DNA of 51,476 nucleotides from Rubrobacter aplysinae (lineage in GTDB: Bacteria; Actinomycetota; Rubrobacteria; Rubrobacterales; Rubrobacteraceae): assembly GCF_001029505.1 (NCBI RefSeq), contig NZ_LEKH01000019.1:1-51476 (forward strand). Reading direction: 5' to 3'. The translations under genes and the position numbers were made by a program. The notes beneath the pieces were generated by a model, which was not told the origin of the DNA, did not search any database, and saw nothing but the letters and a program-made list of their open reading frames with translations. This document shows, piece by piece, positions 8,928 through 33,635 of this stretch. Positions within the stretch are counted from its first letter, which is position 1. Each line of letters starts with the position of its first letter.

Positions 8928-10217
<1,290 letters not shown>

Positions 10218-10957: not shown

Positions 10958-10958
10958 G

Positions 10959-14180: not shown

Positions 14181-14483
14181 ATGCACAAGCTGACCGTGCT
14201 CTACCATCATCCGGAGGACCCGGAGGCCTTCGACCAATACTACGAGACCACCCATGTTCCCATAGCCGAGAACATACCGGACGTAAAGCACTTCGAGTCC
14301 GGCCGGCTGCTGGCCACGCCCGACGGTGAGGAGCCCCAGTATCACCGGATCGCGGAACTCTGGTTCGAGAGCGCGGACCAGCTTCAGGAAAGCATGGGCT
14401 CCCCGGAAGGCCTGGCCGCGACCGGCGACATAGCCAACTTCGCCACCAGGGGCGTAACCTCGTTCATCTCGGAGGTGGAATAG
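14181..14483 (+). CDS. EthD family protein at the end of the pca operon
   Basis: 100-residue protein with the EthD pattern: LTVLYHHPEDPEAFDQYYETTHVPIAENIP, a short dimeric alpha-beta barrel with an HxP element. An upstream in-frame ATG exists at 14136, but the ATG at 14181 has GGGGAGAA at good spacing and gives the family-sized product. EthD proteins often accompany catabolic operons without an assigned reaction. Their fold is related to that of muconolactone isomerases, so a ligand-binding or lactone-handling role is possible but speculative. It lies 80 bp after pcaC in the same direction. Confidence 0.8.
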   Translation: MHKLTVLYHHPEDPEAFDQYYETTHVPIAENIPDVKHFESGRLLATPDGEEPQYHRIAELWFESADQLQESMGSPEGLAATGDIANFATRGVTSFISEVE

Positions 14484-14568
14484 CCGCGCTCGCCCCCGCG
14501 AGCCGCAGATGGACCGGGCGCGTGGTGGCGTCTCCGTGTCTGATCGAGGATCGCAGGCGCCGGTACAC

Positions 14569-14619
14569 TCGGGAAGGCTGCTCCCGAACAAGATCAACCG
14601 ATGTAACGGCGTAACGCCG
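14569..14619. other. Two small hairpins downstream of the pca operon
   Basis: TCGGGA (14569-14574) pairs with TCCCGA (14582-14587), and CGGCG (14607-14611) pairs with CGCCG (14615-14619). Neither is followed by a T-run, so they are weak candidates for transcript ends between the plus-strand operon and the minus-strand gene at 14636-14863. Confidence 0.3.
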
Positions 14620-18097: not shown

Positions 18098-18940
18098 TTA
18101 CACCTCGTGTGCCCCGCCCACGGCGTCTCCTAAAGCCTCCAGCGCCACCGGACCGGCGAGGAAAGCCTCTGCCGGGGCCCCGTAACCCAGGCGGCGGCCT
18201 TCGGAGAGAGAGAACTCCTCCAAATCCCGACCCATCTCCCCAACGCCGCCGAACTGGAACCCGAGCTGGCTTTCGTATGCCCCGCAGGCCCGGAGCTTGT
18301 CCTCCAGCTCATTCCGCATTACGACGCCCGTCTCGGAGACCTCCGGGGGCGTGGGTACCCGCGGCGTCGCCTCCGGGGCGCGCAGGGCGTAGGGAGTGTC
18401 CCGGTAGTAGAGCGTGCGGGGGGCCTGGCTCTGTAGTATCCGTCCCGTTTCAGCCAGAGCGCCCAGAGCCCGGATCACCTGCAAGTGATCCACGTGCCCC
18501 CCGAGACCCTGGGGCGCGAAGACCAGCTCCGGCTCGGTATCCCGTATCAGTGCGGCGAGGCTCTCCCCGGCCGCCAGGTGGGCCTCATCGCCGGGGAGAA
18601 CCCCGGAGAAGAGCTCCTCCGCGCTCTCGTAGCCCCGGTGGGGGGCCTCCGGGTGCGCGAGGTGTACGGGATCCGCCCCGAGCTCCCGGCACGCCGCCGC
18701 ATCCTCGGCGCGTCTGAGCTCCATGTAGTCCACCGTCTCTGGTATCCCCTTGTCCGTCTGGCACGCGAGGGCGAAGCCGCCGGGCTCCGGCACGCTCGCG
18801 GCAAAGACCGTGGCGAGCGTAACGCGCCAGCCGAGCCGGGAGAGCCGGGCCGCCGTGCCGCCGCAGGAGAAGGCCACGTCGTCCAGGTGGGGCGAGACGA
18901 ACAGCGCGGCCGGAGACCTGTTACGCGCGTTGTTATTCAC
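18098..18940 (-). CDS. PIG-L family N-acetylglucosaminyl-type deacetylase
   Basis: 280-residue LmbE-like zinc hydrolase. The motif PHLDDVAFSCGG (about 17-28; His and Asp-Asp ligands) and the second motif GGHVDHLQVIRA near residue 150 are intact. The family removes acetyl groups from N-acetylglucosaminyl conjugates, as MshB does in mycothiol synthesis and BshB in bacillithiol synthesis. It is the last gene of the minus-strand cyclitol/YcaO operon, 19 bp after the glycosyltransferase. The likely role is deacetylating the GT4 product (inference). The GTG start has no clear ribosome-binding site. Confidence 0.85.
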   Translation of the reverse strand: MNNNARNRSPAALFVSPHLDDVAFSCGGTAARLSRLGWRVTLATVFAASVPEPGGFALACQTDKGIPETVDYMELRRAEDAAACRELGADPVHLAHPEAPHRGYESAEELFSGVLPGDEAHLAAGESLAALIRDTEPELVFAPQGLGGHVDHLQVIRALGALAETGRILQSQAPRTLYYRDTPYALRAPEATPRVPTPPEVSETGVVMRNELEDKLRACGAYESQLGFQFGGVGEMGRDLEEFSLSEGRRLGYGAPAEAFLAGPVALEALGDAVGGAHEV

Positions 18941-18959
18941 GCTAGAAGAGATAGAGACG

Positions 18960-20192
18960 CTAGAGGAGATGCGGGGCCTCCCGGAACCGGCAGGTCTCCA
19001 CGGTATCGTCCAGGGTCCAGCCCGTGTCCGGCGGGGTGCCGACGAGCAAACGGTAGACTTCCTGTATACGCTCCGCTATAGCGGGCCAGGCGTAGACGTT
19101 CCGGGCCTCGGCGAGCGCGTTCTCCGCCAGGCGCCGCCGCAGTCCCGGATCGTCCAGCACCCGGCCTATAGATGAGGCCAGGGCCTCGTGGTCGCCGGGC
19201 TCGACGAGCAGCGCGTCCTCTCCGTCTGTCAGGCAGTCCACCACCCCGACGGCCCTCGTCGAGACTATCGGGAGGCCCGTGGCCATCGCCTCCAGGATGG
19301 TGTTCGAGAACCCCTCGGCGTGGGTGGGCGAGACGAAGACCTCGGCTTTCCTGTAGACCTCCGGCGTCTCGTCGTAGGGGGTGTATCCGGCAAACTCCAC
19401 CCGCCCGGACAGGCCGAGATCCGAGGCCAGGTCCTTCGCGCTCTCCACGTCCGGCCCGATACCGCTGACCACGAGCCCGAAGTCGTTCCTACCCTCTTCC
19501 GAGAGCAGAGACATTGCCCGGAGGAGATCCAGAATCCCTTTCCGGGCGTCCACCCGGCCGTGATACAGCAGGGTGGGGCTCTCTGGTACACGGCCCACTA
19601 CTCTCTCGTCCGCGGGGTGGAACCTGCGAGTGTCCACCGCGCCGGGGATTACCATGAAGGAGTCCGGCGGGACGCCGTGGTTCTCGTGTACCTCTTCGGC
19701 GAAGGAGCGGGAGCCTATGAGAAGCGCCCCGGCGTGGCCCAGCACCGCCTGCATGGCCCTGGCGTGGGTGCCGCAGCAGCTACCGACCCAGTGTCCGTCG
19801 CCGCCCTGGATGGAGACCACGTTCGGCACTCCCGTCTCGGCGGAGGCCTCCAGCGCGGCCAGGCCCGTGGGGTAGCCGTACTGGGCGTGAATGATGTCGA
19901 AAGGCTCCCGCTCGTGCTCGGCCGTTATAGTCTGGACCATGTTTCGGATGTCGCGCTCGAAGTCCCCGCCCTCGCGCTCGCCGACGGCTTCTAGCCCGAT
20001 CACCCGCACCCCCGGTACCTCCGGCGGCGGCCCGCCGCCGTACACGCCCCGGCCTTCCGGGCCGTCGCGGTACTGGCTGACCAGCGTAACGTCGTGGCCC
20101 TGCTCCACGAGCTCGCGCAGCAGGTTGGCGGCGTACACGCTCATGCCCGACACGGCGGGGAAAAACCGCCGCGACACAAAGCAAACTCTCAT
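18960..20192 (-). CDS. GT4-family glycosyltransferase (MshA-like architecture)
   Basis: 410-residue GT-B glycosyltransferase. The N-terminus MRVCFVSRRFFPAVSGMSVYAANLLREL is the acceptor-side Rossmann domain. The C-terminal half has LLYHGRVDARKGILDLL and the GT4 donor-binding E-x7-E stretch HAEGFSNTILEAMATGLPIV. It transfers a sugar from a nucleotide donor with retention. The pairing with a PIG-L deacetylase and an inositol phosphate synthase in one operon recalls MshA, which glycosylates inositol-1-phosphate with UDP-GlcNAc. The acceptor here is unproven. Start overlaps the TIM-barrel gene stop as ATGA. Confidence 0.88.
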   Translation of the reverse strand: MRVCFVSRRFFPAVSGMSVYAANLLRELVEQGHDVTLVSQYRDGPEGRGVYGGGPPPEVPGVRVIGLEAVGEREGGDFERDIRNMVQTITAEHEREPFDIIHAQYGYPTGLAALEASAETGVPNVVSIQGGDGHWVGSCCGTHARAMQAVLGHAGALLIGSRSFAEEVHENHGVPPDSFMVIPGAVDTRRFHPADERVVGRVPESPTLLYHGRVDARKGILDLLRAMSLLSEEGRNDFGLVVSGIGPDVESAKDLASDLGLSGRVEFAGYTPYDETPEVYRKAEVFVSPTHAEGFSNTILEAMATGLPIVSTRAVGVVDCLTDGEDALLVEPGDHEALASSIGRVLDDPGLRRRLAENALAEARNVYAWPAIAERIQEVYRLLVGTPPDTGWTLDDTVETCRFREAPHLL

Positions 20193-21127
20193 CGGAACTC
20201 CAGACCTCCACTCCCGTACTCCACTCTCGTCTCCGCCTCCCTGAGCGCGGCGAGCGACCCCGGTATCTCCTCGTGCGCCCGGTGCGACTCGCGGGAGAGC
20301 TCCACGCAGACCAGCCGCCCGAAGCCGACCTTCCTGAGCGCGCCGAGCACCGCCGGGACGTCCATATCACCCTCTCCGAAGGGCCGGTGCTCGTGTACCC
20401 CGCGCGGCATATCTTCTATAGATACGGTGCCAAGGCTCCCGGCGAACTCCCGCACCGCCTCTTCTGGTTCACGCTCTCCGGTCACCAGGCAGTGTCCGGT
20501 ATCGAGCGCCAGCGAAAGGCTCTCTGAAACCCCTCCTGAAAGCTTCTCTATCTCTCCGGCGAGGCGCGCGTAACCGTCCGGGGTCTCGACTAGCATCCCG
20601 GGCTCTGGCTCGAAGGCCGCGGTTACCCCGAGCTCCGAGGCCCTCTCCAGCACCAGGCCGACGCCCTCCGCCAGCCGCCGCCACGCCTCGCCGGGGTCGT
20701 CGCCGGGCCACGGCACTCCGGACCAGAAAGAGACGGCCTCGGCGCCGGTCGCCGCCCCGACTTCGAGGGCCCGGTACAGAAAGTCCAGCCGGAGGCCGCG
20801 GGCGTCCGGGTCCGGGGTCACGAGGGTCGGCTCGTGCTTGCGGCGCGGGTCCAGCAGGAAGCGGGCCCCGGTCTCTACTACCACCCCGAGGCCGAGCCGG
20901 GAGAGCCGGGAGGAGAGCCGGTCTGCGCGCCGGACGAGGCCCGGGGCGAACGGGTCGAGGTGATGGTGGTCCAGGGTGAGGGCGACGCCGTCGTAGCCGG
21001 ACCCGGAGATGAGGTCCAGAGCATCTTCTAGCCGGTGGTTCTGGGCCCCGTTGGTGTTGTAGGCATATCGCAGGCCCGGTGGACTCTCCTGGCTCGATGA
21101 GCTCGATGGTGGCCCCGATAGGCTCAA
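20189..21127 (-). CDS. Xylose isomerase-like TIM barrel protein (sugar/cyclitol isomerase-epimerase)
   Basis: 312-residue AP-endonuclease-2 family barrel. Likely metal ligands are in FEPEP, DTGH, HRPFGEGDMD and VELSRES, in the expected order. Family members isomerise or epimerise sugars and inososes (for example IolE, IolI). The frame is open far upstream, but the extension reads as Arg/Gly/Pro-rich shadow of ycaO. I therefore start at the TTG (21127-21125), which shares TTGA with the ycaO stop and has GAGGAG upstream. The protein begins with a short Ser-rich tail before LRYAYNTNGAQNH. Confidence 0.85.
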   Translation of the reverse strand: MSLSGPPSSSSSQESPPGLRYAYNTNGAQNHRLEDALDLISGSGYDGVALTLDHHHLDPFAPGLVRRADRLSSRLSRLGLGVVVETGARFLLDPRRKHEPTLVTPDPDARGLRLDFLYRALEVGAATGAEAVSFWSGVPWPGDDPGEAWRRLAEGVGLVLERASELGVTAAFEPEPGMLVETPDGYARLAGEIEKLSGGVSESLSLALDTGHCLVTGEREPEEAVREFAGSLGTVSIEDMPRGVHEHRPFGEGDMDVPAVLGALRKVGFGRLVCVELSRESHRAHEEIPGSLAALREAETRVEYGSGGLEFR

Positions 21128-22653
21128 CAGATCCCACGCTCCTCGGCGGCGAGCGCGGCGACGTGGCGGCCCGGCTCCCGGTACAGCGGATACAGGTTCC
21201 CGACGGTGCGCTCCACCGCCTCGTAATCTAGCCAGGCCGGGCCGAGCTCGGCCTCCGCCTGCGGCGGGAGCAGTATACGGTGGGCTCCGGGACGCCCGCC
21301 GGGGCCGCCGGTTATCACGAGGTCGCTGCCACGGTCGAGGAGCCGGCGGAGGTTTCGCGGCCCGATGCGGCCGTAGCTCAGGGTCTCTACCTCGAGCCCC
21401 GGGACGAGCGCCTTGACGGCCCGGGCCCCGCCGTCCTCCGGTGAGAGGTCCAGATACAGCACCTCCAGCCCGGCCTTCGAGAGCCGGTCCACGACCACCT
21501 CCAGCAGCCGCTCCCGGTAGTCCGGCGCCTCCTCGTCCATCCCGAGCGTCGGGACGCCGGAGAGCGCCGTGCGGGAACGGACCGTGAGCACCGGGTCTGA
21601 GATGAGATCCCTCAACTCTCCGTAAGAGCGAGAGAGCCAGTCGAGCGTCGCCTCCAGCGAGCGGTCCTCCTCGCTGCCTAGTGGCTGCCCGCGGAACCTC
21701 TCGACGTATCCGGGCGGGGAGATGGCGTGTATCGGGGAGAGCGGACCGTGGTTGAAGGGTTTTCTGGCCCGGGCCGCGCAGAACTCCGCCAGGCATTTGC
21801 GCAGCGCGATCTCCCGGTCCGGGTGGGCCGCTTCGCCGCAGGCCGTGACCGTGAGCGGATGCACACCGCCTCCCGGCTCTCCGGGCTCCCGGTCCTCGCC
21901 GACTGCGTAGAAGTTCGCTATCCCGAGGTCGGTCTCCGCGAGCTTTACGGTAACGTCCACGCCGCCGCCGGCGATCATCCTTAGGAGCTCCCGCGCCTGA
22001 CGGTCTTCGACGCCGTCGAGATCCACCGCGATACCCTGGTCCAGCGCCCGGTATGAGACGCTGTTGCCGTCGCGTTGGACGAGCTCCAGCAGGGCGTGGG
22101 AGAGGGCGTGGGCGAAGGTCGGACCGGCCCCGAGGCCGTTCGTGATCGGGGTGGTCAGGCACTCTTCGGGGGGCGGGCTACCGCCGAGGTCCGCGAACCG
22201 GCTCGCCGCGAGCTCTACCGGGACCAGCACCTCCTCGCCGCCGGGATGGCGGCGGGCCGGGACCCACTCGAGCTCGGTCTGCGGCGTATAGTCGCTGCCG
22301 GCGGGCAGGCAGGCCTCACGGGGGTCCAGGACCCCGCGCGGGCCGCGCTCGGAGACGAGTTCCTCGTAGGAGCCGCGCGTCCGGGGCAGGGTGGAGAAGG
22401 TGCGCCAGGCGTTCACGGACTCGAACATCTCGCCGTGGGCGCTGGTGCGGGCTGCTCCACGCGTGGTCCCGTAGCCTATGCCGTTCGTGAAGGGACCGCT
22501 CTCGGGCCACAGCGCCGCAGACCACACCGGGACGCCGAGGTGGTCGAGGCCCGAGATCTCGAACTCCGCCTCCGCGCCGGGGGGGAGGGACCGGCGGTAC
22601 GGTGCTACCGTCTGTTCTCCGGGTAAGTTCCCGGCCTCACTCAAATCGCTCAA
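21124..22653 (-). CDS. YcaO domain protein
   Basis: 509-residue YcaO ATP-dependent enzyme. Diagnostic elements are S71-x3-E75-x2-E78 (SAHGEMFE), TNGLGAG (about 171-177), then ALLELVQRD (about 187-195, with Gln where many have Glu) and ALRKCLAEF further on. YcaO enzymes phosphorylate an amide oxygen so that a nucleophile (thiol, amine, sulfide) can attack, making azolines, amidines or thioamides. No TfuA, E1-like partner or precursor peptide gene is nearby, and the C-terminus lacks the PxPxP tail of azoline-forming YcaOs. A small-molecule substrate is therefore inferred. The TTG start shares TTGA with the upstream stop; GGAGGTG lies 8 bp before it. Confidence 0.9.
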   Translation of the reverse strand: MSDLSEAGNLPGEQTVAPYRRSLPPGAEAEFEISGLDHLGVPVWSAALWPESGPFTNGIGYGTTRGAARTSAHGEMFESVNAWRTFSTLPRTRGSYEELVSERGPRGVLDPREACLPAGSDYTPQTELEWVPARRHPGGEEVLVPVELAASRFADLGGSPPPEECLTTPITNGLGAGPTFAHALSHALLELVQRDGNSVSYRALDQGIAVDLDGVEDRQARELLRMIAGGGVDVTVKLAETDLGIANFYAVGEDREPGEPGGGVHPLTVTACGEAAHPDREIALRKCLAEFCAARARKPFNHGPLSPIHAISPPGYVERFRGQPLGSEEDRSLEATLDWLSRSYGELRDLISDPVLTVRSRTALSGVPTLGMDEEAPDYRERLLEVVVDRLSKAGLEVLYLDLSPEDGGARAVKALVPGLEVETLSYGRIGPRNLRRLLDRGSDLVITGGPGGRPGAHRILLPPQAEAELGPAWLDYEAVERTVGNLYPLYREPGRHVAALAAEERGIC

Positions 22654-23561
22654 AGCGGCAACACCTCCACGAAAGGTCTCCTCTCTAGCTGGGCGTCTAG
22701 CAGCGCGAGCACCTCCCGCTCGCCGACGTTCGTACACTGCTCGAACGGGGTAAAGGTCTCGTCGAACCCTAGACCGGAGAAGACCTCCCTGTAGCGGTGC
22801 GCCTCGTCCGGGGTGAGCGGTATGCGCCGGACGAACGCCTTGTGGGTCGAGATGCCGTCGGCGGTCCTACCCTCCGGGTCCGATCCGGCTAGCTCCAGCT
22901 TCACGGCGTCTCCTATATATAGCCTGCGGTTACCGGGGTCGTGGAGGACCGAGTGGCCGGCGAAGTGGCCGCCGGTATTTATGAGGCGGAGGCCGCCGGG
23001 GAGGTCGAGCGCGGCGTCGAAGGGCAGGGTTACCCCGAAGGCCCTGGCCCAGCCGAGGTCCTCGCGGTGTATGGCGACCTCGCAGCCGAAACGCTCGGCA
23101 AGCCGCCACAACGCGCCGTAGGTGTGGGGATGAGACGCCGAGGCGTACGCCACGCCGCCCAGGGACTCGATGTGATCGAGAGCCCCGTCGTCGTACAGGG
23201 CAGAGGCCTCGAATGCCACGTTTCCCTCCAGCCGGACGAGCACGTACCCCGAAGGTGAGATGCCGAGCGGCGTATCCAGACTGTACCTCCAGACGCCGGG
23301 CCTCACCTCACTCCAACTGCAGCGGGACCTCTCCGCCGCCTCCCCGGCGTCCAGAAACTCGAAGCCCCGCTCGGGGAGCACGTGGCGGAAGTCCTCGCAC
23401 AGGGGACAAGTGGCCGGGCGCTCGAAGCGTTTCTGCCAGAAGCCGCAGTTGGTGCAGACGTAGGCCTGTAACTCCGCCTCCCGCGGCCAGTCGGCCGGTA
23501 TGCGGGAGCCGTGGGGCGTGCCGCGGGGGCCGGCGTGAGGCTGCGATCCGGGCTCCGTCAC
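22650..23561 (-). CDS. Zinc-knuckle plus metallo-beta-lactamase fold protein
   Basis: 303 residues in two parts. Residues 34-60 form a rubredoxin-like/zinc-ribbon knuckle with C36, C39, C52 and C55 (YVCTNCGFWQKRF, TCPLC). The rest is a metallo-beta-lactamase fold with ASHPHTYGALWRL, GGHFAGHSVLH and IGDAVKL. The first metal motif keeps His-x-His but lacks the usual following Asp-His, so only one metal may bind. The pairing recalls flavodiiron-linked rubredoxins or sulfur-handling MBL proteins (persulfide dioxygenases, glyoxalase II), but the function is unknown. The start overlaps the dehydrogenase stop (GTGA), and the stop overlaps ycaO (TTGA). Confidence 0.82.
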   Translation of the reverse strand: MTEPGSQPHAGPRGTPHGSRIPADWPREAELQAYVCTNCGFWQKRFERPATCPLCEDFRHVLPERGFEFLDAGEAAERSRCSWSEVRPGVWRYSLDTPLGISPSGYVLVRLEGNVAFEASALYDDGALDHIESLGGVAYASASHPHTYGALWRLAERFGCEVAIHREDLGWARAFGVTLPFDAALDLPGGLRLINTGGHFAGHSVLHDPGNRRLYIGDAVKLELAGSDPEGRTADGISTHKAFVRRIPLTPDEAHRYREVFSGLGFDETFTPFEQCTNVGEREVLALLDAQLERRPFVEVLPL

Positions 23562-24655
23562 GCTGTCTCTCCTTTTGTCTTCTCTTTTGTCTTCTCTTTT
23601 GTCTTCTGTATTTTCTTCTGGCTAGAACTCTCCGGGCTACCGGATGGTATGGCTGAAGCCGCCTCCTCCAGGAGCCTCATGGTGTGGAGGTCCCGCTCCG
23701 GCCCGTGGTCGGGCTCCCGGCCCTCGAGTATGGTGCGGGAGAAGGACTCGATCTGGCCGGTGAACGGCGAGAGGTTCTCTTCGGAGGGTATCTCCACCCG
23801 CTCGCGTGACCCGTCGGATGCCCGGACGAGCTCCAGGGTGCCGCCGGGCTCCTGGCCCAGGGTGTCCGTGGTGACGGCGAGCGCGCGGGTGCCGGACACT
23901 TCGAGCGTGCGCCTCGGGTAGACCTCCGGCGTGCTGTAGGAGACGTGCTGCAGGAACAGGACGCCGCTGCCGGTGTTTCCCACCAGCGCCGCGCCGTCCT
24001 CCACCGGATAGTCGAAGACCCGGCGCTGCAGGCGGGCGCTCACCGACTCCAGACTCTCGTCCAGGAGATACTGGACGAGGTCGAGACCATGCGGGGCGAG
24101 ATCCGTGAGGGCACCGCCGCCGGCGCGGCCCGGATCCGCCCGCCAGTTGTCCTCGGACCACTCCGGGGGCAGCCAGCAGGCGTAATGTATGCGTACCGAG
24201 CAGACCGTGCCCAGCGCCCCCTCCGAGACGAGCCTCCGCAGCCTGCGGTGCGCCGCATGGAACCGCTGGTCGAAGGCGGTCGAGAGGACCACGCCCGCCC
24301 GCCGGCAGGCGGCGGCCATCGCCTCCGCGTCCGGTAGCGCCGGTGCCAGCGGCTTCTCGCACAGGACGTGCTTGCCCGCGGCGGCGGCGGCCTCCACAAT
24401 CTCCCGGTGCAGGTGGTTCGGCGTGGCGACGTACACCGCGTCCAGCCCGGGCCCGGACAGGAACTCCCCGAGGTCCGTGTGCCGGCTCGCCTGTGGCGCA
24501 AGCTTTCCGGTCGCGGACAGGGCCCCGGGCGAGGGGTCGAGGAGCGCGACCGGGTCCGCGTTCCGGGCCTCCGTGACGGCCGGCGCGACGAAGTCTCTGG
24601 CGACCCAGCCGCAGCCCGCGATGCCCCAGCCCAGGGTCTGCGTTGAGCCGGCCAC
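23558..24655 (-). CDS. Gfo/Idh/MocA family NAD(P)-dependent oxidoreductase
   Basis: 365-residue sugar/cyclitol dehydrogenase. The N-terminal Rossmann motif is GWGIAGCGWVARDF (about 9-22). CEKPLAP supplies the conserved Lys that contacts cofactor and substrate, and DLAPHGLDLVQYLL holds the catalytic-region His. In this operon it could oxidise myo-inositol or a derivative to an inosose (inference). The C-terminal 25 residues are a Lys/Thr/Glu low-complexity tail (QKTKEKTKEKTKGET) encoded by a perfect 12-bp x 3 repeat at 23572-23607. The GTG start directly follows the preceding TAG, with GGAGGGG at 6-bp spacing. Confidence 0.88.
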   Translation of the reverse strand: MAGSTQTLGWGIAGCGWVARDFVAPAVTEARNADPVALLDPSPGALSATGKLAPQASRHTDLGEFLSGPGLDAVYVATPNHLHREIVEAAAAAGKHVLCEKPLAPALPDAEAMAAACRRAGVVLSTAFDQRFHAAHRRLRRLVSEGALGTVCSVRIHYACWLPPEWSEDNWRADPGRAGGGALTDLAPHGLDLVQYLLDESLESVSARLQRRVFDYPVEDGAALVGNTGSGVLFLQHVSYSTPEVYPRRTLEVSGTRALAVTTDTLGQEPGGTLELVRASDGSRERVEIPSEENLSPFTGQIESFSRTILEGREPDHGPERDLHTMRLLEEAASAIPSGSPESSSQKKIQKTKEKTKEKTKGETA

Positions 24656-25879
24656 CTACATCCCCTCCGGTAGATCCAGGAGAACCCGGTGGCGGACGAG
24701 CCGGTCTATCTCGGGCGAGGCCCCGACTCCCTCTTCCGCGCCCTCCCTGAGAACTGTCTCGCTGGGGGAGATCCGCTCCGGGAGGTAGCCGGACCGCGGC
24801 GCATACTCCTCTTCGTAGTGCCCTGACGGCCACCCCAGCACGTGGGACCCCTCGCCCAGGTCCTTGTAGAGCGGGTTCAGACGGAGCGGCGTGCCGGGTG
24901 GCGGGAGCAGGAGATCCGGCGCCCGCCGCGGACGCGAGCTGGATCTGGAGCCGGACCTAACGAGGCTCACCGCCTCGCTCCGGGAGAGCTCCCCGGCTTC
25001 TCGCGGCGTGGGGTCTCGCCCGGCCACAGCGGCTTCCGTGAGCTCTGCGTCGTCGTAGAGCGTGGATCCCGGGAAGAGCTCCAGGTGCCGGGCGACGCCC
25101 GCCGGCTCTCCGGATGAGAAGTTTTCTACCGCCGCATTGTGTGAATGTCCTATTACAATGGTTCCGTCGTCTCCGGCGATCCGGCCGAGCTCGGCCGCCA
25201 CGTGAGGCTTATCCGGCAAAAAGTAGAAGGCGTCCTGGCACAGCGCGAGGTCCGCCGAGCCATCCTCCACGGGGAAGCGGCGGGAGGCGTCGAAGCACAC
25301 CAGCTTCGCCTCCGGCACCAGGTAGCGGCGGGCGAGCCACAGCTTGGCGAAGACCACGTCTCCGGCGGTGGCCTCGATCCCGCGCCGGGAGAGCTCGCGG
25401 GTGTAATGTCCGATGCCGCAGGCCAGCTCGAACGAGCTCTGCGGGGCGTCCCAGCCGGTCTGTATGAGACACAGGCCGGCGAGGTAGACGGGGTCCGAGA
25501 GCCTGTAGGAGAAGTAGTCGGCCACCGGGCCGAAGCCCAGATAATGCATTACCTCTCTGGCCGGACCGCCGGCGTCCGCCACTGATACGGCGGCCCGCAC
25601 GCTTTGAGGGGAGGGCGGGGAGGTGGGGGCCCAGTCGTCCTGATCTCGTAAGAGCCCGGCGAGCGCCGCGTCATGATCTCCCCGGTCGAGTGCGGCGTTG
25701 ACGCGTTCCAGAAGCTCTTTGCGGCCCGCGCGCAGGTACGGTATCTCCTCGACCACGGGCCAACGCTCGCCGCCGGAGCCATCCGTGAGGAAAGGGCCTC
25801 GGCGGTAGAGGGGCCGTCCGGTCTCCGGGCTGGAGAGTGACGCGTCGGCCCAGGTGGGGATAAATACGGGATTACCCAA
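24656..25879 (-). CDS. Class I SAM-dependent methyltransferase with N-terminal Trm112-like region
   Basis: 407 residues. The N-terminal 65 or so residues (FIPTWADASLSSPETGRPLYRRGPFL, WPVVEEIPYLRAGRKELLE) resemble the short 'PVVEGIPYLR' leader of some methyltransferases but without zinc cysteines. Motif I is FELACGIGHYTRELSRRG, followed by ALCQDAFYFLP, typical of small-molecule O/N/C-methyltransferases. The frame is open upstream through the previous gene. I start at the TTG at 25879, 2 bp after the preceding TAA, with AGGCAGGG upstream. It could methylate a hydroxyl or amine of the cyclitol product (inference). Confidence 0.78.
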   Translation of the reverse strand: MGNPVFIPTWADASLSSPETGRPLYRRGPFLTDGSGGERWPVVEEIPYLRAGRKELLERVNAALDRGDHDAALAGLLRDQDDWAPTSPPSPQSVRAAVSVADAGGPAREVMHYLGFGPVADYFSYRLSDPVYLAGLCLIQTGWDAPQSSFELACGIGHYTRELSRRGIEATAGDVVFAKLWLARRYLVPEAKLVCFDASRRFPVEDGSADLALCQDAFYFLPDKPHVAAELGRIAGDDGTIVIGHSHNAAVENFSSGEPAGVARHLELFPGSTLYDDAELTEAAVAGRDPTPREAGELSRSEAVSLVRSGSRSSSRPRRAPDLLLPPPGTPLRLNPLYKDLGEGSHVLGWPSGHYEEEYAPRSGYLPERISPSETVLREGAEEGVGASPEIDRLVRHRVLLDLPEGM

Positions 25880-25881
25880 CC

Positions 25882-26838
25882 TTATCGTAGCCCTGCCTGT
25901 GAGAGTACGGCGTCCTGGAACTCGTTCAGGGGCCCCGGGTGGACGAGGTCCATCTCGCCGAGCGCCTGATCCAGGGTGAAGCCCGCCTGTCTTTCGTGGT
26001 TTTGCATCTGGAGCACCCGGTCGAGAACGTCCGCCGCGTGGAACGCCCGGCCCTCGGGGCTGTCGGCGTCCCGGGTAGTCTCCAGGCACGCCTCCGTCTC
26101 TTCTCGGAGCGTCTGCGGCAGCTCCGCAAGCGCGGACTCGCGGAACCTCCCCGCCACCCGCTCCAGATACCCGCCGAGCAGCTCCTCACCGGTAAAGCCC
26201 GAGTCCGGGAGCCCGGCGTTGTGCAGGTGATGGGCGAGGCCGGCCAGAAACACGGGGGCCGGGTCCGCCTCGAAGAAGCCGGAGAGTATTACCCCGTACA
26301 CCGCGACCGTGGCGCAGTGCTCGGCGTGGGACTCCGGGGGCTCCAGGATCAGGCGCGGCCTGCCGGGCCTCGTTGCTCCGGCCCGGGGCTGACGCGCCAG
26401 GGCGGCGGCGAATCCCGGGGCCTGTCCTGTACTGTGGTGCCCGGGGGCCGGGGCTCCGGGGACCGCCACAGCGGCCCGTAGCTCACCCAGCAGGGGCTCT
26501 GGTATGGGGGAGGAGACGGCGTCGAATCCAGAGAGGAGCACCTCCCGCGCCTCCTGCGACGAGAGGCCGCCCGTGGCGAGCACGGATCCGTCCACCGCGC
26601 CGAGCCGGGCGGAGCATAGCGCCGAGGCGGTCGCGTGGAGGGCCGTATCCCTGGTGTCCAGGGCCTCGGAGCCGCCACGGGGGCTGCTTAGCGCGGCCCA
26701 CGAGCTCCGAAAGTGGGCGTCGGCGACGCTGCCTTCGAGCCGGGCGGCCCGGACCCTTTTGAGGTCCCCGATCTCGGAGAGGAGGGAGAGGTACGGTGGT
26801 ATCCCGGCCGCCACGGACTCTGCTGAGGTTCTCTTCAC
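25882..26838 (-). CDS. HD-superfamily-like protein of unknown function
   Basis: 318 residues. The central segment SHAEHCATVAVYGVILSGFFEADPAPVFLAGLAHHLHNAGL (about 170-211) has the helical layout of HD phosphohydrolases, but the hallmark His-Asp is replaced by His-His. The N-terminal half (about 1-120) is helical and Ala-rich, and a Pro/Ala linker follows. HD proteins cleave phosphate esters; some HD-fold members are oxygenases, myo-inositol oxygenase being the notable inositol-acting case. Whether this is a distant MIOX-like or phosphohydrolase enzyme cannot be told from sequence alone. GTG start, 10 bp after the inositol phosphate synthase stop. Confidence 0.7.
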   Translation of the reverse strand: MKRTSAESVAAGIPPYLSLLSEIGDLKRVRAARLEGSVADAHFRSSWAALSSPRGGSEALDTRDTALHATASALCSARLGAVDGSVLATGGLSSQEAREVLLSGFDAVSSPIPEPLLGELRAAVAVPGAPAPGHHSTGQAPGFAAALARQPRAGATRPGRPRLILEPPESHAEHCATVAVYGVILSGFFEADPAPVFLAGLAHHLHNAGLPDSGFTGEELLGGYLERVAGRFRESALAELPQTLREETEACLETTRDADSPEGRAFHAADVLDRVLQMQNHERQAGFTLDQALGEMDLVHPGPLNEFQDAVLSQAGLR

Positions 26839-26848
26839 GTCCGGGAAC

Positions 26849-28174
26849 CTACGCGCTGGCGGAGTCTACCCGGCCCGCGGAGGCGGCGCCGTTGGAGATC
26901 CAGTCAAATAGCCGCTGCTCCTGGCGGTAGAAGTCGTGGTCCGGGGAGTCGCCGTCCCGCACGGTCATCGGGGCCTTGAAGAAATGTCCGAACTGCTCCT
27001 GGACCCCGCCGGAGCCCCGCCTGCGGGCGAGGTCGGATAGCCTGGCGAGCTCTATTACGAGGGGGGCCGCCAGCACCGAGTCTCCGCAGAGGAAGTTGAC
27101 CTTGAGCTGCATCTGCTTGCCCAGAAAACCCGAGACGTCCACGTTGTCCCAGGCCTCCTTGTTGTCGCCGCGCGGCGGGTAGTAGTGGATCGAGACTATG
27201 TGGTTCTCGACCTCGTAGCCGAGCATGTGATCCAGCACAGACCCCTTGGTCGCGTTCTTGGAGGCCAGGGAGTCCGGGTCGTCCAGGATGTGCCCGTCGC
27301 CGTTTCCGAGCATGTTGGTCGAGTACCAGCCCTCGACGTGCAGCGCGCGCGAGCGCAGCGCCGGGGCGAGCACGGTCTTTAGCATGGTCTGGCCGGTCTT
27401 GCCGTCCTTGCCCGAGACCGGGACGTTCCTGAGCTCTGAGAGGCGTTTTATCGCGGGCACGTCGGCGGCGACGCTGGGGGTGAAGTTCACGTACGGCGCG
27501 CCCTCGCTGATCGCGGCGTAGGCGTAGAGCATCGCCGGACCTATCTCCGGCGCGTCGGCGTCCAGGCCGCTCTCGAAAGCGTCTATGGTGGAGAGGACCG
27601 GCGCGGATATGTCCGCCACCCTCTCCGTCGAGGCCAGGTTTACCAGCACCACCGAGTCCAGGCCGTTACGCTCCTTGAAGTCCCGGAGGTCGGCGCGGAT
27701 CGCCTCTACCTTCGCCCGGTGGCCGTCGGCGGCGACCACGTTCGAGCCGGCGGCGTTGCGGCAGAACTCGCTGTCGAAGGCGGCTGGCCAGGGCGTAACT
27801 CCCCCGAGCCTCTCCCGGATGGCCTCTAGCTGCCGGTAGTCCAGAACCCCGGCCCTCTCCGCCGCGGTTGCGAGATCGTCGCCCGAGAGATCCCAACCCC
27901 CGAAGACCAGATCCTCGTAAAGAGCCATCTCCTCCGTACCTTTGAGAGGCCGCGCCTCTCCGCCCTCGTCTCGTACGCTGGCCTCCGCCAGCGGCAGGCC
28001 CTCCGTCCCGGCGAGCCCGGCCTTCATGAGCTCCGTCCCGGCGACCGCCGTCGAGGCGACCGCCCCTCCGAGACCCACAACGGCCACGCCCAGCCCGCTC
28101 TTGTAGCGGCCCCCGCCGCTCTCCTCGCCGTTCCTTTCGCTGCTTTTTCCGCCGTTTGGCTGCCTCTGCTGCAA
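26849..28174 (-). CDS. ino1: Inositol-3-phosphate synthase, long type
   Basis: 441-residue NAD-dependent enzyme cyclising glucose-6-phosphate to inositol-3-phosphate. It has the dinucleotide motif GVAVVGLGGAVAST near the N-terminus, PYVNFTPS, GKDGKTGQTMLKTVLAPAL (phosphate/NAD-binding core) and the catalytic-lysine region KVNFLCGDS. It is longer than the roughly 360-residue mycobacterial type and resembles the long bacterial class. Start: a GTG at 28189 extends the frame by 5 codons but has no ribosome-binding site. The TTG at 28174 has GAGGAG at 7-bp spacing. First gene of the minus-strand operon, so it probably sets the scaffold. Confidence 0.9.
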   Translation of the reverse strand: MQQRQPNGGKSSERNGEESGGGRYKSGLGVAVVGLGGAVASTAVAGTELMKAGLAGTEGLPLAEASVRDEGGEARPLKGTEEMALYEDLVFGGWDLSGDDLATAAERAGVLDYRQLEAIRERLGGVTPWPAAFDSEFCRNAAGSNVVAADGHRAKVEAIRADLRDFKERNGLDSVVLVNLASTERVADISAPVLSTIDAFESGLDADAPEIGPAMLYAYAAISEGAPYVNFTPSVAADVPAIKRLSELRNVPVSGKDGKTGQTMLKTVLAPALRSRALHVEGWYSTNMLGNGDGHILDDPDSLASKNATKGSVLDHMLGYEVENHIVSIHYYPPRGDNKEAWDNVDVSGFLGKQMQLKVNFLCGDSVLAAPLVIELARLSDLARRRGSGGVQEQFGHFFKAPMTVRDGDSPDHDFYRQEQRLFDWISNGAASAGRVDSASA

Positions 28175-28210
28175 TTGATGGCTCCTCACCCGGGATCTGT
28201 ATCCCGGCTC

Positions 28211-28240
28211 CGGTACTTTTCGGTACTTTTCGGTACTTTC
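28211..28240. repeat. Three 10-bp direct repeats in the divergent promoter
   Basis: CGGTACTTTT occurs at 28211-28220 and 28221-28230, and with a final C at 28231-28240. The repeats lie 22-66 bp upstream of the possible ino1 starts. A 10-bp period places each copy on the same face of the helix, the layout of a cooperative operator, but it could also be slippage. Confidence 0.6.
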
Positions 28241-28608
28241 TCAGCCGAAGCTCTCGGCCGACGCCAGACTCTCTGGCTCCTGTCAAAGCGTTCCTGATTT
28301 CCCAACATCCCTCAACGGTACGAGCGAGCCGTAGTGTATCCGCCTCCTACGGCCTCGCTGTGTTAGCTAACATAGTTCCGGCCTTCTCCCGGCACGCCCT
28401 CGCGCTGAGAAACGCCCATGAAGATCCCGTGAGATATGCACCTTGAAGCCGGCGCGAAACTCGCACTGTCATAGCCATTACGGCCGCCCCGGCAGACCCG
28501 GTTACCCTGCGTCTGCCGGTTTTGATGTTCTCGAGGTTCTCGAGGTTCTTGATGCCGGAGGATCTCGTAGGTCCCACTCGTAGAACTCGTAGATTCCAAG
28601 GGGGTACG
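28241..28608. promoter_or_regulatory. Divergent control region with 9-bp tandem repeats
   Basis: Separates the minus-strand cyclitol operon from the plus-strand epimerases. It contains GTTCTCGAG twice in tandem plus a third diverged copy (28527-28553), and ACTCGTAGA twice (28576-28593). The plus-strand frame is open across these repeats back to 28522, but AAGGGGG just before the TTG at 28609 marks that as the start, so the repeats fall in the leader. No clear -10/-35 pair was identified. Confidence 0.45.
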
Positions 28609-29625
28609 TTGACGGATGCTCTGCCGGACCGAGGTTCCGGCTCCGCGGGGAGGGTGATGATTACGGGGGCCACGGGCTACGTGGGCTCGGCGGTCGCTGC
28701 CGCCCTGGACCGTGCCGGATACGAGGTCTGTGGCCTGGCCCGCTCGCGGGCCTCGGCGCAAGAGCTGCGGGGCAGGGGCTACGCGGCGTATCCCGGAGAT
28801 ATGAAGCGGCCCGGGGACCTCTCGCGGGCCATACTGGAGTCCGGTGCCGGCGCCGTCGTCCACGCCGCCACGACCGGAGACTCAGAAGCCGAAGAGGCCG
28901 ACAGGAACGCGGTCGAGGACGCTCTGCGGGCGCTGCGGGGCACGGGACGGACCTTCGTATACACCAGCGGCGGCTGGGTCATGGGCGAGACGCCGGGCTC
29001 GCCGCAGGACCCGCTCGCGGACGAGGAAACCCCGCCGGAGCCCGCGCCTTCCCTGCACTGGCGTCCGGCGGTCGAGCGATGGGTACTGGAGGCCGCTGCG
29101 AGCCACGGGGTGAGCACCTTCGTGGTCCGGCCCGCGCTGGTATACGGCGGGGGCGGGGGAGTGGTCGCGGAGCTCGTGCAGTCCGCCCGGGAGCGCGGCT
29201 CGGCACGGTACGTGGTGGGAGACGCGCCGGGCTCGGGCCCCCTGTGGACGCTGGTCCACAGGGGGCCCGACCTCGGCGACCTCTACGCCCGTATCCTGGC
29301 TCGCGCCGAGCCTGATGGGACCGGCGGGTCTCTCGGGACCCTCGTGGTCGCCGCCGGCACGAGCCCCGTGCCGGTGCGTGAGATCGCCGCCGAGGCAAGC
29401 CTGCTATACGGTTCGGGAGATCCCCCACAGCCCCTACCCCTCTCCGAGGCGCGCCGCGAGCTTGGCGTCTACGCGGACTCCCTGGTCCTCAGCCAGCGGC
29501 TCTCGGGCGCCCGCGCCCGCCGACTCTTCTGTTGGGAGCCCTCCGGCCCTCCGGTCCTCGAGGAGCTTGCCACCGGCTCCTACGCCCCTCCGGGCTCCTC
29601 AGAGGGTAACGGCGGTGTCAGATGA
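28609..29625 (+). CDS. Atypical SDR/NAD-dependent epimerase family protein
   Basis: 338 residues. A Rossmann motif VMITGATGYVGSAVAAAL lies near residue 18, and VYTSGGWVMGET stands where extended SDRs have the catalytic Ser/Thr. The Tyr-x3-Lys site is missing: the aligned region reads LHWRPAVERWV. It therefore probably belongs to the atypical SDRs and may bind NAD(P) without classical epimerase chemistry. The TTG start has AAGGGGG 4-5 bp upstream. The stop overlaps the next SDR gene as ATGA, so the two may act together. Confidence 0.78.
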   Translation: MTDALPDRGSGSAGRVMITGATGYVGSAVAAALDRAGYEVCGLARSRASAQELRGRGYAAYPGDMKRPGDLSRAILESGAGAVVHAATTGDSEAEEADRNAVEDALRALRGTGRTFVYTSGGWVMGETPGSPQDPLADEETPPEPAPSLHWRPAVERWVLEAAASHGVSTFVVRPALVYGGGGGVVAELVQSARERGSARYVVGDAPGSGPLWTLVHRGPDLGDLYARILARAEPDGTGGSLGTLVVAAGTSPVPVREIAAEASLLYGSGDPPQPLPLSEARRELGVYADSLVLSQRLSGARARRLFCWEPSGPPVLEELATGSYAPPGSSEGNGGVR

Positions 29626-30704
29626 GGCTCCTGGTGCTCGGCGGCACCGGGTTTCTCGGCTATCACGCGGTCACCGCCGCCATAAGCGAAGGTCACGAGG
29701 TGTCGGTCTTTACCAGGGGAGGCGAGGCCCCGGCCGACGGAGTAGAGATGCTCTACGGCGACCGCCACGGCGACCTCTCTGCCCTGCGAGATAGGGAATG
29801 TAGGGAATGGGACGCCGTGCTCGACACCTTCTCCGACCCGGAAGCCGTCGCCGAGACCGCCCGGCTTTTCTCCGGCTCCGCCGGGGCTTACGGCTTCGTC
29901 TCCGGCATTACCAACTATCACCCGCACGGCCCGCGGGTAGTGGACGAGGAGTCCCCTTTGAGGGTATCCGGCGACGCCCCGTCCGAGGACCCGCTCCAGG
30001 AGAGGGGCCTGGCAAAGCTCGGGTGCGAGAGCGCGGTGCTCCGGGAGTTCTCCGGAGAGACCTTTATCGTACGGCCGGGGATAATGGTCGGCCCCCGGGA
30101 CCCGACCGACCGCTTTAGCTGGTGGCCCGCGAGGTTTGCCCGGGCGTTTGGGCTGTCGGGACTTGCGGGGACCGGGGCTGGGCCCGCTAACGTACACGAG
30201 GTGCTCGCGCCCGGGGACCCGAACCGTCCCGTACAGTTTACCGACGCCCGGGATCTCGCCCTGTGGATGGTCCGGATGCTCGCCTCCGGGACGGGGGGAA
30301 TCTACAACGCCGTCGGGCCGGGCCGCCGCGAGCCCATCTCCGAGGTCCTGGATACCTGCCGCCGGGCCGCGGCCGAGCTGGCAGAGTCTGAATCTGCTGT
30401 CCCGGCGGCCACCGCCTATCCGCGTCCGACCTGGGTGGATGAGACCTTTCTGGCGCACCATCTCGAAGACGTTACAGAGGAGAAGCGCCCCCTATGGTTT
30501 CCGGAGCCCCAGATACCGTTCGACGAGGTCGACTCCTCCCGCGCCATAGACGCCGGCCTGTGCTTCAGACCCACCGTAGAGACCGCCCGCGACACCTTGA
30601 GATGGCTCGGACCCCGCGCCCAGGACCCCTCGAACCTCGCGGCCGGCCTGACTTACCATCGTGAGCGCGATCTCCTCCGAGCGTGGCACGGAGTCGGGCC
30701 GTGA
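29622..30704 (+). CDS. Second NAD-dependent epimerase/dehydratase family protein
   Basis: 360 residues. The N-terminus LLVLGGTGFLGYHAV is a clear nucleotide-binding motif, and FTRG at about 30 follows strand 2. FVSGITNYHP occupies the active Ser region. Where relatives have Tyr-Gly-x2-Lys it reads ERGLAKLGCES, keeping Lys but not Tyr. The C-terminal half contains RPGIMVGPRDPTDR and VQFTDARDLALWMV, typical of this family. ATGA overlap with the preceding SDR. Substrate unknown; probably a nucleotide sugar or cyclitol derivative. Confidence 0.8.
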   Translation: MRLLVLGGTGFLGYHAVTAAISEGHEVSVFTRGGEAPADGVEMLYGDRHGDLSALRDRECREWDAVLDTFSDPEAVAETARLFSGSAGAYGFVSGITNYHPHGPRVVDEESPLRVSGDAPSEDPLQERGLAKLGCESAVLREFSGETFIVRPGIMVGPRDPTDRFSWWPARFARAFGLSGLAGTGAGPANVHEVLAPGDPNRPVQFTDARDLALWMVRMLASGTGGIYNAVGPGRREPISEVLDTCRRAAAELAESESAVPAATAYPRPTWVDETFLAHHLEDVTEEKRPLWFPEPQIPFDEVDSSRAIDAGLCFRPTVETARDTLRWLGPRAQDPSNLAAGLTYHRERDLLRAWHGVGP

Positions 30705-30816
30705 TCCAGGTCTCGCCGGCAAAACACACAAGACACACAAGAACCCGCCCCGATAATACGAGACACTGGTCCAGCACGAAATCAACGCATAATACAGTAC
30801 AGGCTGGGGCTATCTT
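30705..30816. promoter_or_regulatory. Probable promoter of the GalE-like gene
   Basis: 112-bp gap. It contains CACACAAGA twice in tandem (30725-30742) and a GCATAATAC (30787-30795) whose CATAAT is a plausible -10 about 20 bp before the TTG start. A GATAATAC lies at 30752-30759. No TTGACA-like -35 is evident. Confidence 0.35.
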
Positions 30817-31710
30817 TTGATACTGGTCACCGGTGGGGCGGGGTTCATCGGGTCTCGACTGGTATCCGCGTTAGTGGCGGATGGTCTGGAGGTTGCGGTG
30901 CTGGACGATTTGTCCGGCGGTAGTGCCGCAAGCCTGCCTGCTGGGGTCCGGTTTCTGGAGGCGGACGTGGCGGACCCCGGGGTAATCGGCGAGATTGAGC
31001 GCCTCTCTCCGTGGGCCGTGGTACACGCCGCCGCCCAGATCAGCGTCCCCGCCTCCGTGGCAGACCCCGGGCGCGACCGGGCGGTAAACGTCGAAGGTAC
31101 GGAGAACGTGATCTCGGGTGCCATAGCGGCCGGTTCCGGGAGGTTCGTGTTCCTCTCTTCCGGTGGCGCCGTATATGGAGAAGCCGATGGCGCGACGGAG
31201 CTCACGCTGCCGGACCCCACGAGCTACTACGGGGCGCACAAGTACCTCGCCGAGCGGTACGTCGGTCTCAGCGGTCTCTCGTTCGCCATAGCCCGGCTCG
31301 CGAACGTTTACGGAGCGGGACAACGCTCCGACCTCGAAGGCGGGGTAGTATCCATATTCTTGGAACGTCTGCTGTGCGGCTCCCCGGTAACCATCTACGG
31401 CACGGGCCTACAGTCCCGGGACTTCGTGTACGTGGGCGACGTTGTAGACGCACTCCTCACCATGCTCGGGAGCCGCTCAGAAGGAACCTGGAACGTCGGC
31501 ACCGGAGCCTCGACCACCCTCCTCGGCCTCCTGCAAAGCCTCCAGGACGAGCTCGGTACCGGGATCTCGCCTCACCACGCCCCGCCTCGCCCCGGAGACG
31601 TGCGGGGATCCCGCCTGCATGTAGACCGTATCCTGGAAGACCTCAGCTGGAAACCCCGCCACAGCCTGCCCGAGGGACTCAGGGAGACCATCCGGGAATC
31701 CAGGAGGTAA
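30817..31710 (+). CDS. galE: GalE-like UDP-sugar 4-epimerase
   Basis: 297-residue extended SDR. It has ILVTGGAGFIGSRLV at the N-terminus, FLSSGGAVYG with the catalytic Ser, and a complete SYYGAHKYLAERY (Tyr-x3-Lys). RLANVYGAGQ and QSRDFVYVGDVVDAL are standard. It probably interconverts UDP-glucose and UDP-galactose or their N-acetyl forms. It is shorter than E. coli GalE (338) but normal for actinobacterial homologues. It lies 112 bp after the atypical SDR pair with its own likely promoter and could supply the donor sugar for the GT4 gene (inference). TTG start. Confidence 0.85.
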   Translation: MILVTGGAGFIGSRLVSALVADGLEVAVLDDLSGGSAASLPAGVRFLEADVADPGVIGEIERLSPWAVVHAAAQISVPASVADPGRDRAVNVEGTENVISGAIAAGSGRFVFLSSGGAVYGEADGATELTLPDPTSYYGAHKYLAERYVGLSGLSFAIARLANVYGAGQRSDLEGGVVSIFLERLLCGSPVTIYGTGLQSRDFVYVGDVVDALLTMLGSRSEGTWNVGTGASTTLLGLLQSLQDELGTGISPHHAPPRPGDVRGSRLHVDRILEDLSWKPRHSLPEGLRETIRESRR

Positions 31711-31865
31711 TAACGCATAATACTAAAAAGCTGTACGGAAGTGGTGCCTGGATCGTCTGGGGGATAGTATGATCTGGAGCATAGTCTTATAATTACGGGT
31801 GGTGTCTTGATTATCTCACTGGTACATACCGGCACATCCGGAGCATCCGAAGTAGGGGAGTGATC
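31711..31865 (+). promoter_or_regulatory. Promoter region of the SPFH gene pair
   Basis: A consensus TATAAT lies at 31788-31793, about 70 bp upstream of the SPFH start, without a recognisable -35. A second candidate, GCATAATAC (31715-31723), lies just past the galE stop. AGGGGAG before the ATG is the ribosome-binding site. Confidence 0.4.
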
Positions 31866-33635
31866 ATGTCCGAGGTGCGTAGGCGGGCGCAGGATGCGGT
31901 GGAGGAGTTGACGCAGGATGGTGAAATAGAGGAGTTCAGTGTAAACGAGTCTGACTTTCTGTCCGTCAGGGAGCGCGGCGGGGCGGCCGGTACCCGGATA
32001 GAGCAGAGCCCGGCGAAGCTGTCCGAGGCGTCTGAGATCGCGAACCGGAGCTTCCCGGAGCGGGGTCCCTCGGGACAGTTTACCAACGTGGTGTACCCGG
32101 TGGTGATACCCGAGCGCCAGTCTCTTTTCTGGAGGGTGTTGCCCATAGGGCTGCTCGTCGTGTTCGTCGTGGTCGGCGTCCTGTCGGTCGGGCTCGGTGC
32201 CGTACCCGGGGTTGGAGGGTTGGCCCTGGCGGTTGCCGGGCCTCATCTATGGCTTCTCTTCGCCCTTCTGGCGCTGTTCTCGTGGTGGAGGCAGAGCGTG
32301 GTAATGGTGCCTGACGGATGTCAGGCTCTGATCACGCGCTTCGGCAGGCTTGAGGATACCGTGGGTGCGGGACGTATCTTACTGTTTAACCCCTGGAAGC
32401 AGGTTGGCTACATAGTAAACACCGTCCGGGAGTACCCCTACAACGCGCCGATCCGGGAGGCCCCGACCTCCGGCAGGGTCAACGCTTCCGTGGATCTTTT
32501 TCTCCAGTTCCGCATCGAGCAGCCTGCGGAGTTCGTGTTCACCCTTGGTGGGGTCAAGGGCTTCTCCGACAAGCTGGAGAACGCCATAAGCGAGGTTACC
32601 CGGGCTCTCATCTACGAGCAGCGCGCCGAGGATATCTACGATCTCGTTGGTGAGGATACGGACAACTTCATGGGGTCTCTCAACGACCAGTTCCTGCCCG
32701 CCGTGCGGTTCACGAACGCGAACATCACCCACGCCGAGCCTTCGAGCAAGGAGTATAGGATAGACCTCGCCTCCCCGGAGATGGTCCGGGTCGCAAAGGA
32801 GGCGTACACGTATCAGTACGAGCTCAGGCTCCGCAAGGAGCAGGACGAGGGTGAGCTGAACAAGGAGCTCGCCGAGCTCCGCAAGACGCTCTCCGAGATA
32901 ACCGCCGATATAGCCGCTTACCAGGCTCAGATGGACACCGCCCGCGAGCGGGAGACCAACGGCGCGGAGGCCCGGGCCCGTCAGCGGCTGGTCGAGGCCG
33001 AGAGTGAGGCGAACGCGAACGCGGCTCTGCTAGAGGCCCAGGCCCTGGACATCCGGGCCGTATCCAGCGCCGGCGCGCCGGAGATACTGGAGTACCGTTT
33101 CCAGCGCGAGGTGCTCGACAAGCTGGAGTCAGTCGCACAGCGGCTGCCCCGGGTGGTCCAGCTAGGCGAACAGGGCGGCGACGGCAACGTGGACTTCCTG
33201 GAGATAGCTCGGCGCATGATCGGCACCCGCGAGGAGCCGCTGTACTCCGAGGAGGACATGGAAGGCCTGCGCAGGAGAATCGAGGAGATCCAAACCCGTA
33301 TCGAGGAGCGCCAGCAGGAGATACAAAGCCTCTCAACCGCTCACGCCGATGACGCCGATGAAGCTCCCCAAGAAGACGATGCCGGAGGCGGAGATGAGGA
33401 TAGGGTAGAGGAGATCCGACGCTCCGTCACCGACGAAGCCGTAAAGGAACGTGTAGAGCGAATCGGCGACGACAAAAATCATACCCATAATACAAGTAAT
33501 GCAGACGGTACTGGCACCGACAGCACTGAAAGCACTAACAGACCTAACGGGCCTGAGAAACCCGAGGATTCCAGAGGTAACTCTAGTAGTTCCGGTAGTG
33601 GATCCAACAACTCCGTCGACGGTGGGGAGGACTAG
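31866..33635 (+). CDS. Membrane-anchored SPFH/Band 7 protein A
   Basis: 589 residues. A soluble N-terminal region (1-90) ends in VVYPVVIPERQ. Two hydrophobic segments follow (about 91-111 and 117-140), then the SPFH domain (VVMVPDGCQALITRFGRLEDTVGAGRILLFNPW onward, to about 320), and a long charged coiled coil (320-430, rich in Glu, Arg, Ala). The tail is low-complexity Asn/Ser/Gly/Asp. SPFH proteins oligomerise into membrane cages (flotillin, HflKC, prohibitin). I choose the ATG at 31866, not the GTG 6 bp earlier, because AGGGGAG is 6 bp upstream. It is followed without a gap by a second SPFH gene. Confidence 0.83.
   Translation: MSEVRRRAQDAVEELTQDGEIEEFSVNESDFLSVRERGGAAGTRIEQSPAKLSEASEIANRSFPERGPSGQFTNVVYPVVIPERQSLFWRVLPIGLLVVFVVVGVLSVGLGAVPGVGGLALAVAGPHLWLLFALLALFSWWRQSVVMVPDGCQALITRFGRLEDTVGAGRILLFNPWKQVGYIVNTVREYPYNAPIREAPTSGRVNASVDLFLQFRIEQPAEFVFTLGGVKGFSDKLENAISEVTRALIYEQRAEDIYDLVGEDTDNFMGSLNDQFLPAVRFTNANITHAEPSSKEYRIDLASPEMVRVAKEAYTYQYELRLRKEQDEGELNKELAELRKTLSEITADIAAYQAQMDTARERETNGAEARARQRLVEAESEANANAALLEAQALDIRAVSSAGAPEILEYRFQREVLDKLESVAQRLPRVVQLGEQGGDGNVDFLEIARRMIGTREEPLYSEEDMEGLRRRIEEIQTRIEERQQEIQSLSTAHADDADEAPQEDDAGGGDEDRVEEIRRSVTDEAVKERVERIGDDKNHTHNTSNADGTGTDSTESTNRPNGPEKPEDSRGNSSSSGSGSNNSVDGGED

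Follow-up and report, generated by a model that had tools for sequence, protein, structure and literature searches.

A conserved nine-gene operon that places a YcaO enzyme among cyclitol and amino-sugar enzyme families in Rubrobacter aplysinae and other bacteria

Most characterised YcaO enzymes act on peptides, while one of them, YcfA of Erwinia, reportedly serves as a small-molecule YcaO in 6-thioguanine biosynthesis. Among pathways that use cyclitols, the front end of mycothiol synthesis consists of a myo-inositol-3-phosphate synthase (MIPS), a GT4 glycosyltransferase and a PIG-L deacetylase, and mycosporine-like amino acids are made by a DDGS or EEVS cyclase, an O-methyltransferase, an ATP-grasp enzyme and an NRPS or D-Ala ligase. 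The closest published parallel to the locus described here is a different gene set, the ebo operon (eboABCDEF), which is uncharacterised, occurs in several phyla, and has been proposed to make a cyclitol-derived protective metabolite (PMC5133447).

Our locus lies in a 51,476-nucleotide stretch of Rubrobacter aplysinae DNA, which we call the window. In common with ebo it has a sugar phosphate cyclase, a xylose-isomerase-like TIM barrel and a phosphate hydrolase, MIPS normally occupying the place of ebo's EboD cyclase; ebo, however, has a UbiA prenyltransferase and a metallo-dependent hydrolase and is without YcaO, GT4, PIG-L, Gfo/Idh and methyltransferase (PMC5133447), and neither EboD cyclase, EboC UbiA nor EboB hydrolase is found among the nine genes of our operon. 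With the mycothiol pathway (Ino1, MshA, MshB, MshC, MshD) the operon shares the MIPS, GT4 and PIG-L families, yet it has no MshC or MshD, its GT4 and PIG-L score below the equivalog cut-offs, and it carries extra enzymes including YcaO. The likeness to mycosporine-like pathways consists of a cyclase, a methyltransferase and a putative ATP-dependent carbonyl substitution, and a variant in Armatimonadota has a DHQS-superfamily cyclase; here, though, MIPS stands for DDGS and YcaO for ATP-grasp/NRPS, GT4 and PIG-L are added, and no ATP-grasp, NRPS or D-Ala ligase gene is among the nine. YcfA would share with our YcaO a non-peptide substrate, as we propose below, but the YcfA substrate is a purine and the neighbours of YcfA are unrelated to those of the operon. 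The initial annotation of this DNA knew of no pathway with such a gene set, and the open-licence literature (YcaO with inositol, cyclitol, mycosporine, PIG-L or Geodermatophilus) likewise yielded no description of it; with respect to that literature, we provisionally consider the gene set to be new.

The open reading frames of the window include nine packed genes on the minus strand. The first is MIPS (Ino1 family; 26849..28189; PF07994 at 234.9 bits, with PF01658), followed by an HD_3 or YfbR-HDDC2-like protein, likely a monophosphatase (HD; 25882..26838; PF13023 and predicted structure), a class I SAM-dependent methyltransferase (MT; 24656..25879; PF08241), a Gfo/Idh/MocA dehydrogenase that is a candidate cyclitol dehydrogenase (GFO; 23558..24655; PF01408, PF22725), a zinc-knuckle and metallo-beta-lactamase-fold protein (MBL; 22650..23561), the YcaO enzyme (21124..22653; PF02624 at 187 bits), a xylose-isomerase-like TIM barrel, candidate inosose isomerase or dehydratase (TIM; 20189..21127; PF01261, IolE/IolI/ulaE superfamily), the GT4 glycosyltransferase (18960..20192) and, as the last gene, the PIG-L family deacetylase (18098..18940; PF02585). 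Pfam, with scores above cut-off, and NCBIfam agree on eight of these families, and predicted structure supplies the ninth, MBL. YcaO and MT most likely start at TTG codons (22653 and 25879, respectively) rather than at the longest ORF starts, because the TTG starts better fit the tight packing. Across the conserved operon loci the median spacing between genes is −2.5 to −10 nt. Both the nine families on this strand and their packing into a single operon, as first noted, are thus upheld, the latter also by the recurrence of order and strand elsewhere.

A YcaO profile run against 84,980 species genomes found 80 loci, to which three plasmid loci were added, giving 83 loci outside the window. All nine genes, in identical order and on the same strand, are present at 56 of these, and five more, all from Bacteroidota, are missing only MT, a degree of conservation that greatly exceeds what had been anticipated. 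The homologues are therefore not scattered without synteny, the outcome that had been named in advance as counting against the operon. Its members belong to Actinomycetota, Alphaproteobacteria, a Polyangiaceae (Myxococcota) MAG and Bacteroidota, with a modified form in Armatimonadota. The suggested search for co-occurrence of the nine families thus finds synteny across phyla, but not in the Chloroflexi, where the same scan found no operon-bearing member and a single match, a solo YcaO beside an ABC importer. YcaO is patchily distributed among the relatives of R. aplysinae, being present in 9 of the 148 searched, every one of them Rubrobacteraceae. Four of these nine carry the complete nine-gene set besides the window, and a fifth Rubrobacteraceae relative has, on a short contig, INO-HD-GFO-MBL-YcaO-TIM without MT. 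Pairwise identity matrices for eight of the proteins across 44 loci correlate with r of 0.87-0.96. Plasmid copies of the operon occur in Methylobacterium aquaticum (strain 22A, plasmid pMaq22A_1p), Hymenobacter volaticus and Roseomonas haemaphysalidis, and a plasmid record of M. bullatum holds at least YcaO and HD; of 72,556 plasmid records, searches with YcaO and with HD each match four, and the four are the same. Record titles name Geodermatophilus, Rubrobacter, Skermanella, Belnapia, Hymenobacter and Sphingomonas among the member genera, as well as lichen and other environmental MAGs. Our best reading of the operon is a dedicated, horizontally mobile small-molecule pathway.

The copies vary around a constant core of HD, GFO, YcaO, GT4 and PIG-L. 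MT is missing from Bacteroidota loci, MBL from those of Methylobacterium and some Acetobacteraceae, and MIPS from Goekera and one Acetobacteraceae isolate, while Actinomycetospora has its TIM and GT4 genes on the same contig as the remainder of the operon, at a distance of about 20 kb. In the Armatimonadota MAG (L030), a DHQS-like sugar phosphate cyclase (5604-6827; PRK06203, 548.9 bits) fills the MIPS slot and overlaps the HD gene. This MAG has a separate, true AroB elsewhere (384.8 bits), and a search of it found neither MIPS nor TIM. Replacement of MIPS by such a cyclase, seen in one MAG, suggests that the pathway starts from a cyclitol. Because DHQS-superfamily cyclases yield free cyclitols, the conserved HD protein would have no inositol phosphate to cleave in L030, which counts against the pathway proposed below; HD may act on another phosphate. 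A second YcaO is encoded in L030 at 13101-14570.

We propose that the operon makes a cyclitol-derived, glucosamine-type small molecule, and that its YcaO acts on a small molecule; we put the probability of this general claim, as distinct from each step, at roughly 0.6. The idea of a cyclitol-type pathway was already present in the initial annotation, and it gains from the operon unit, the dedicated MIPS and the cyclase swap, while two of its parts, the MshA/MshB identity and the membership of neighbouring epimerases, are given up below. The conserved unit, the families of its genes, their intact catalytic motifs, the swap and the absence of RiPP partners are direct observations. What we infer from the enzyme families is the order of the steps, their substrates, the nucleophile of the YcaO reaction, and the identity and role of the product.

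The first step would be the formation of inositol-3-phosphate by MIPS, which by sequence is bona fide: both Pfam domains are above cut-off, and it resembles solved MIPS, with a profile match to the Bacteroides-type enzyme 7nwr at 5e-117. A second MIPS is encoded elsewhere in the window's genome, which argues that the operon copy is a dedicated one; Hymenobacter also has a second copy. The YfbR-like HD protein would then cleave off the phosphate. Its predicted structure has the YfbR/HDDC2 fold: the best-ranked matches reach Z 10-11.6, at an rmsd of 2.3-5.0 over 129-153 residues. The metal motif H...HD...D is altered, the HD pair having become HH in alignment to 2cqz, invariantly in 25 members, such that the positions of the first His, second His and final Asp are retained and the canonical metal Asp is lost. 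No HD-oxygenase was among the structural matches listed, an absence that is not decisive. GFO, with its EKP and DLAPHG motifs conserved in the aligned members, may oxidise the ring to a keto-cyclitol; its nearest solved relatives are sugar oxidoreductases, not inositol dehydrogenases. The TIM barrel, which resembles ulaE, IolE and IolI and has invariant acidic and His residues, could catalyse isomerisation or dehydration towards an enolone, and MT, where present, would cap a hydroxyl. With ATP as phosphate donor, YcaO would activate a carbonyl or amide oxygen of the small molecule by phosphorylation, allowing N or S to take its place; the more specific outcome first suggested for this step, perhaps a thioamide or amidine, gained no support. 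GT4 would add GlcNAc, which PIG-L would deacetylate to GlcN. We assign to MBL an accessory role, perhaps as a hydrolase or a sulfur or metal carrier. Its MBL domain is below the Pfam cut-off, but the AlphaFold model (mean pLDDT 91) has a clear MBL fold by Foldseek, and four cysteines of the N-terminal knuckle, CxxC...CxxC, are invariant. From the model and the invariant residues the metal site is reduced and probably mono-metal; a structure search for a sharper function returned only the generic fold.

GT4 and PIG-L had at first been assigned to the MshA/MshB type, and together with MIPS they match the mycothiol front end. This raises the possibility that the product is a low-molecular-weight thiol akin to mycothiol or bacillithiol, in which MIPS, GT4 and PIG-L make GlcN-inositol and YcaO and the others install sulfur, replacing the MshC ligase. 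Such a route would agree with the alignment of the GT4 donor half to both MshA and BshA, and with MshC having no match above cut-off in the window's genome or the other Rubrobacteraceae genomes searched; sub-threshold MshC matches also occur in all 14 control genomes and are presumably cysteinyl-tRNA synthetase. However, although the PIG-L zinc motifs HxDD and HVDH are conserved in the aligned members, both proteins are far below the NCBIfam equivalog cut-offs for MshA and MshB (102 against 462 for GT4, 23 against 224 for PIG-L), and the acceptor half of GT4 is distinct and does not align to MshA. We also know of no role for GFO, TIM or MT in known thiol pathways. On the Hymenobacter plasmid a separate bshB1 gene adjoins the operon, so the operon is not simply that organism's bacillithiol route. 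We have accordingly dropped the MshA/MshB assignment and rejected mycothiol itself as the product, MshC not being above cut-off and MshA and MshB being sub-threshold. The broader thiol reading we regard as doubtful.

The YcaO protein clearly belongs to its superfamily: its ATP-binding residues are kept, and the motifs GE..E, E..QRD and K..E....R are conserved in 79 members. It could in principle modify a peptide or ribosomal protein, in the manner of RiPP or uL16-type enzymes and of characterised YcaOs generally, with the other genes a separate pathway travelling along. The E. coli YcaO thioamidates uL16 (PMC13063428), and MJ1094, the nearest solved relative of ours, comes from a species in which McrA bears thioglycine although TfuA is absent (PMC5589413). 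Against such a substrate, Pfam finds no RRE-bearing partner domain in the nine proteins, the window's genome has no TfuA, the S12/uL16-type model NF040716 gives 18.8 bits against a cut-off of 700, and the spacing within the operon leaves no space for a precursor gene; in addition, the YcaO distance matrix tracks those of the sugar enzymes. On these grounds a peptide substrate is unlikely, and a RiPP or ribosomal target with the remaining genes as passengers seems to us highly improbable.

Solo YcaOs provide a further clue. They adjoin carbohydrate ABC importer genes in four lineages, namely Rubrobacteraceae, a haloarchaeal MAG, a Chloroflexota MAG and a Rhodospirillales MAG (L016 9540-14193; L045 9641-16015; L049 657-4059; L083 3955-8552), and they nest inside the tree of operon YcaOs. 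TIM, MIPS and GT4 are absent from the three solo-YcaO genomes searched. This arrangement, in four cases and given that sugar importers are common, suggests that the YcaO substrate is a small carbohydrate-like molecule, and argues against a peptide. If our small-molecule proposal is true, then YcaO enzymes, nearly always studied on peptides, are also widespread in the metabolism of carbohydrates, and an undescribed cyclitol compound is made or used by bacteria of several phyla, dozens of species in all. Because the operon keeps a strict order of nine genes, occurs on plasmids and is present in a Methylobacterium laboratory strain, its product should be directly discoverable.

Ecologically, the product may protect against UV or desiccation. 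Four unrelated lineages, Rubrobacter marinus, Roseomonas haemaphysalidis, Sphingomonas RIT328 and Actinomycetospora, have a gene of the spore-photoproduct-lyase family close to the operon (L011 16363-17478; L133 17777-19898; L100 14223-15263; L129 2-640); TIGR03886 scores above cut-off for the two of these genes that were tested. By contrast, just 11 of the 148 relatives encode a member of this family at any place in the genome. This proximity was observed post hoc, however, and within Rubrobacteraceae the presence of the gene and that of the operon do not go together, the window's genome itself having no such gene; we therefore treat UV protection as no more than a lead. UVA-absorbing compounds, methylobamine among them, are known from Methylobacterium (cited in PMC9664959, PMC12573535), and we could not connect them with the operon. 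On a more specific reading the product would be a photoprotectant of a new class, a mycosporine-like cyclohexenone or imine derived from inositol and linked to glucosamine, with YcaO in the ATP-grasp/NRPS role. It would be a shared public good, made by carriers of the operon and taken up by some other organisms with an importer and a lone YcaO. Chemistry leading from inositol through inosose and enolone to a methyl ether would fit, as would the cyclase swap, the exposed, sunlit habitats of member genera and the nearby lyase-family genes, but as a whole we consider this reading unlikely.

The initial annotation also counted three sugar epimerase-like genes across a divergent promoter as part of the system. 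Three NAD-dependent epimerase-like genes (28522-31710) do lie divergent from the operon across a 333-bp gap, but they are not conserved neighbours across loci, the first having relatives close to the operon in just two other Rubrobacteraceae, and we have excluded all three from the operon. No sigma-70-like promoter was found in the gap, which says little for this phylum. Other neighbours bear on the possibility that the operon tailors a surface glycan or glycolipid, its cyclitol-sugar being passed to a membrane glycosyltransferase and then exported. In alphaproteobacterial loci an MdoH-like GT2 gene, encoding a membrane glycosyltransferase, does follow PIG-L or lie close by (for example L133 16227-17789). 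MdoH is confined to the Alphaproteobacteria, however, and the conserved unit has no lipid carrier, flippase or ligase gene, which makes this account decidedly unlikely.

Two further gene groups were seen in the window. At 7177-13732, a CoA transferase pair, a thiolase, a lyase and an alpha/beta hydrolase lie beside a LysR gene and resemble a protocatechuate/beta-ketoadipate degradation cluster, and at 31860-34982 two SPFH/Band 7 membrane proteins are encoded by adjacent genes.
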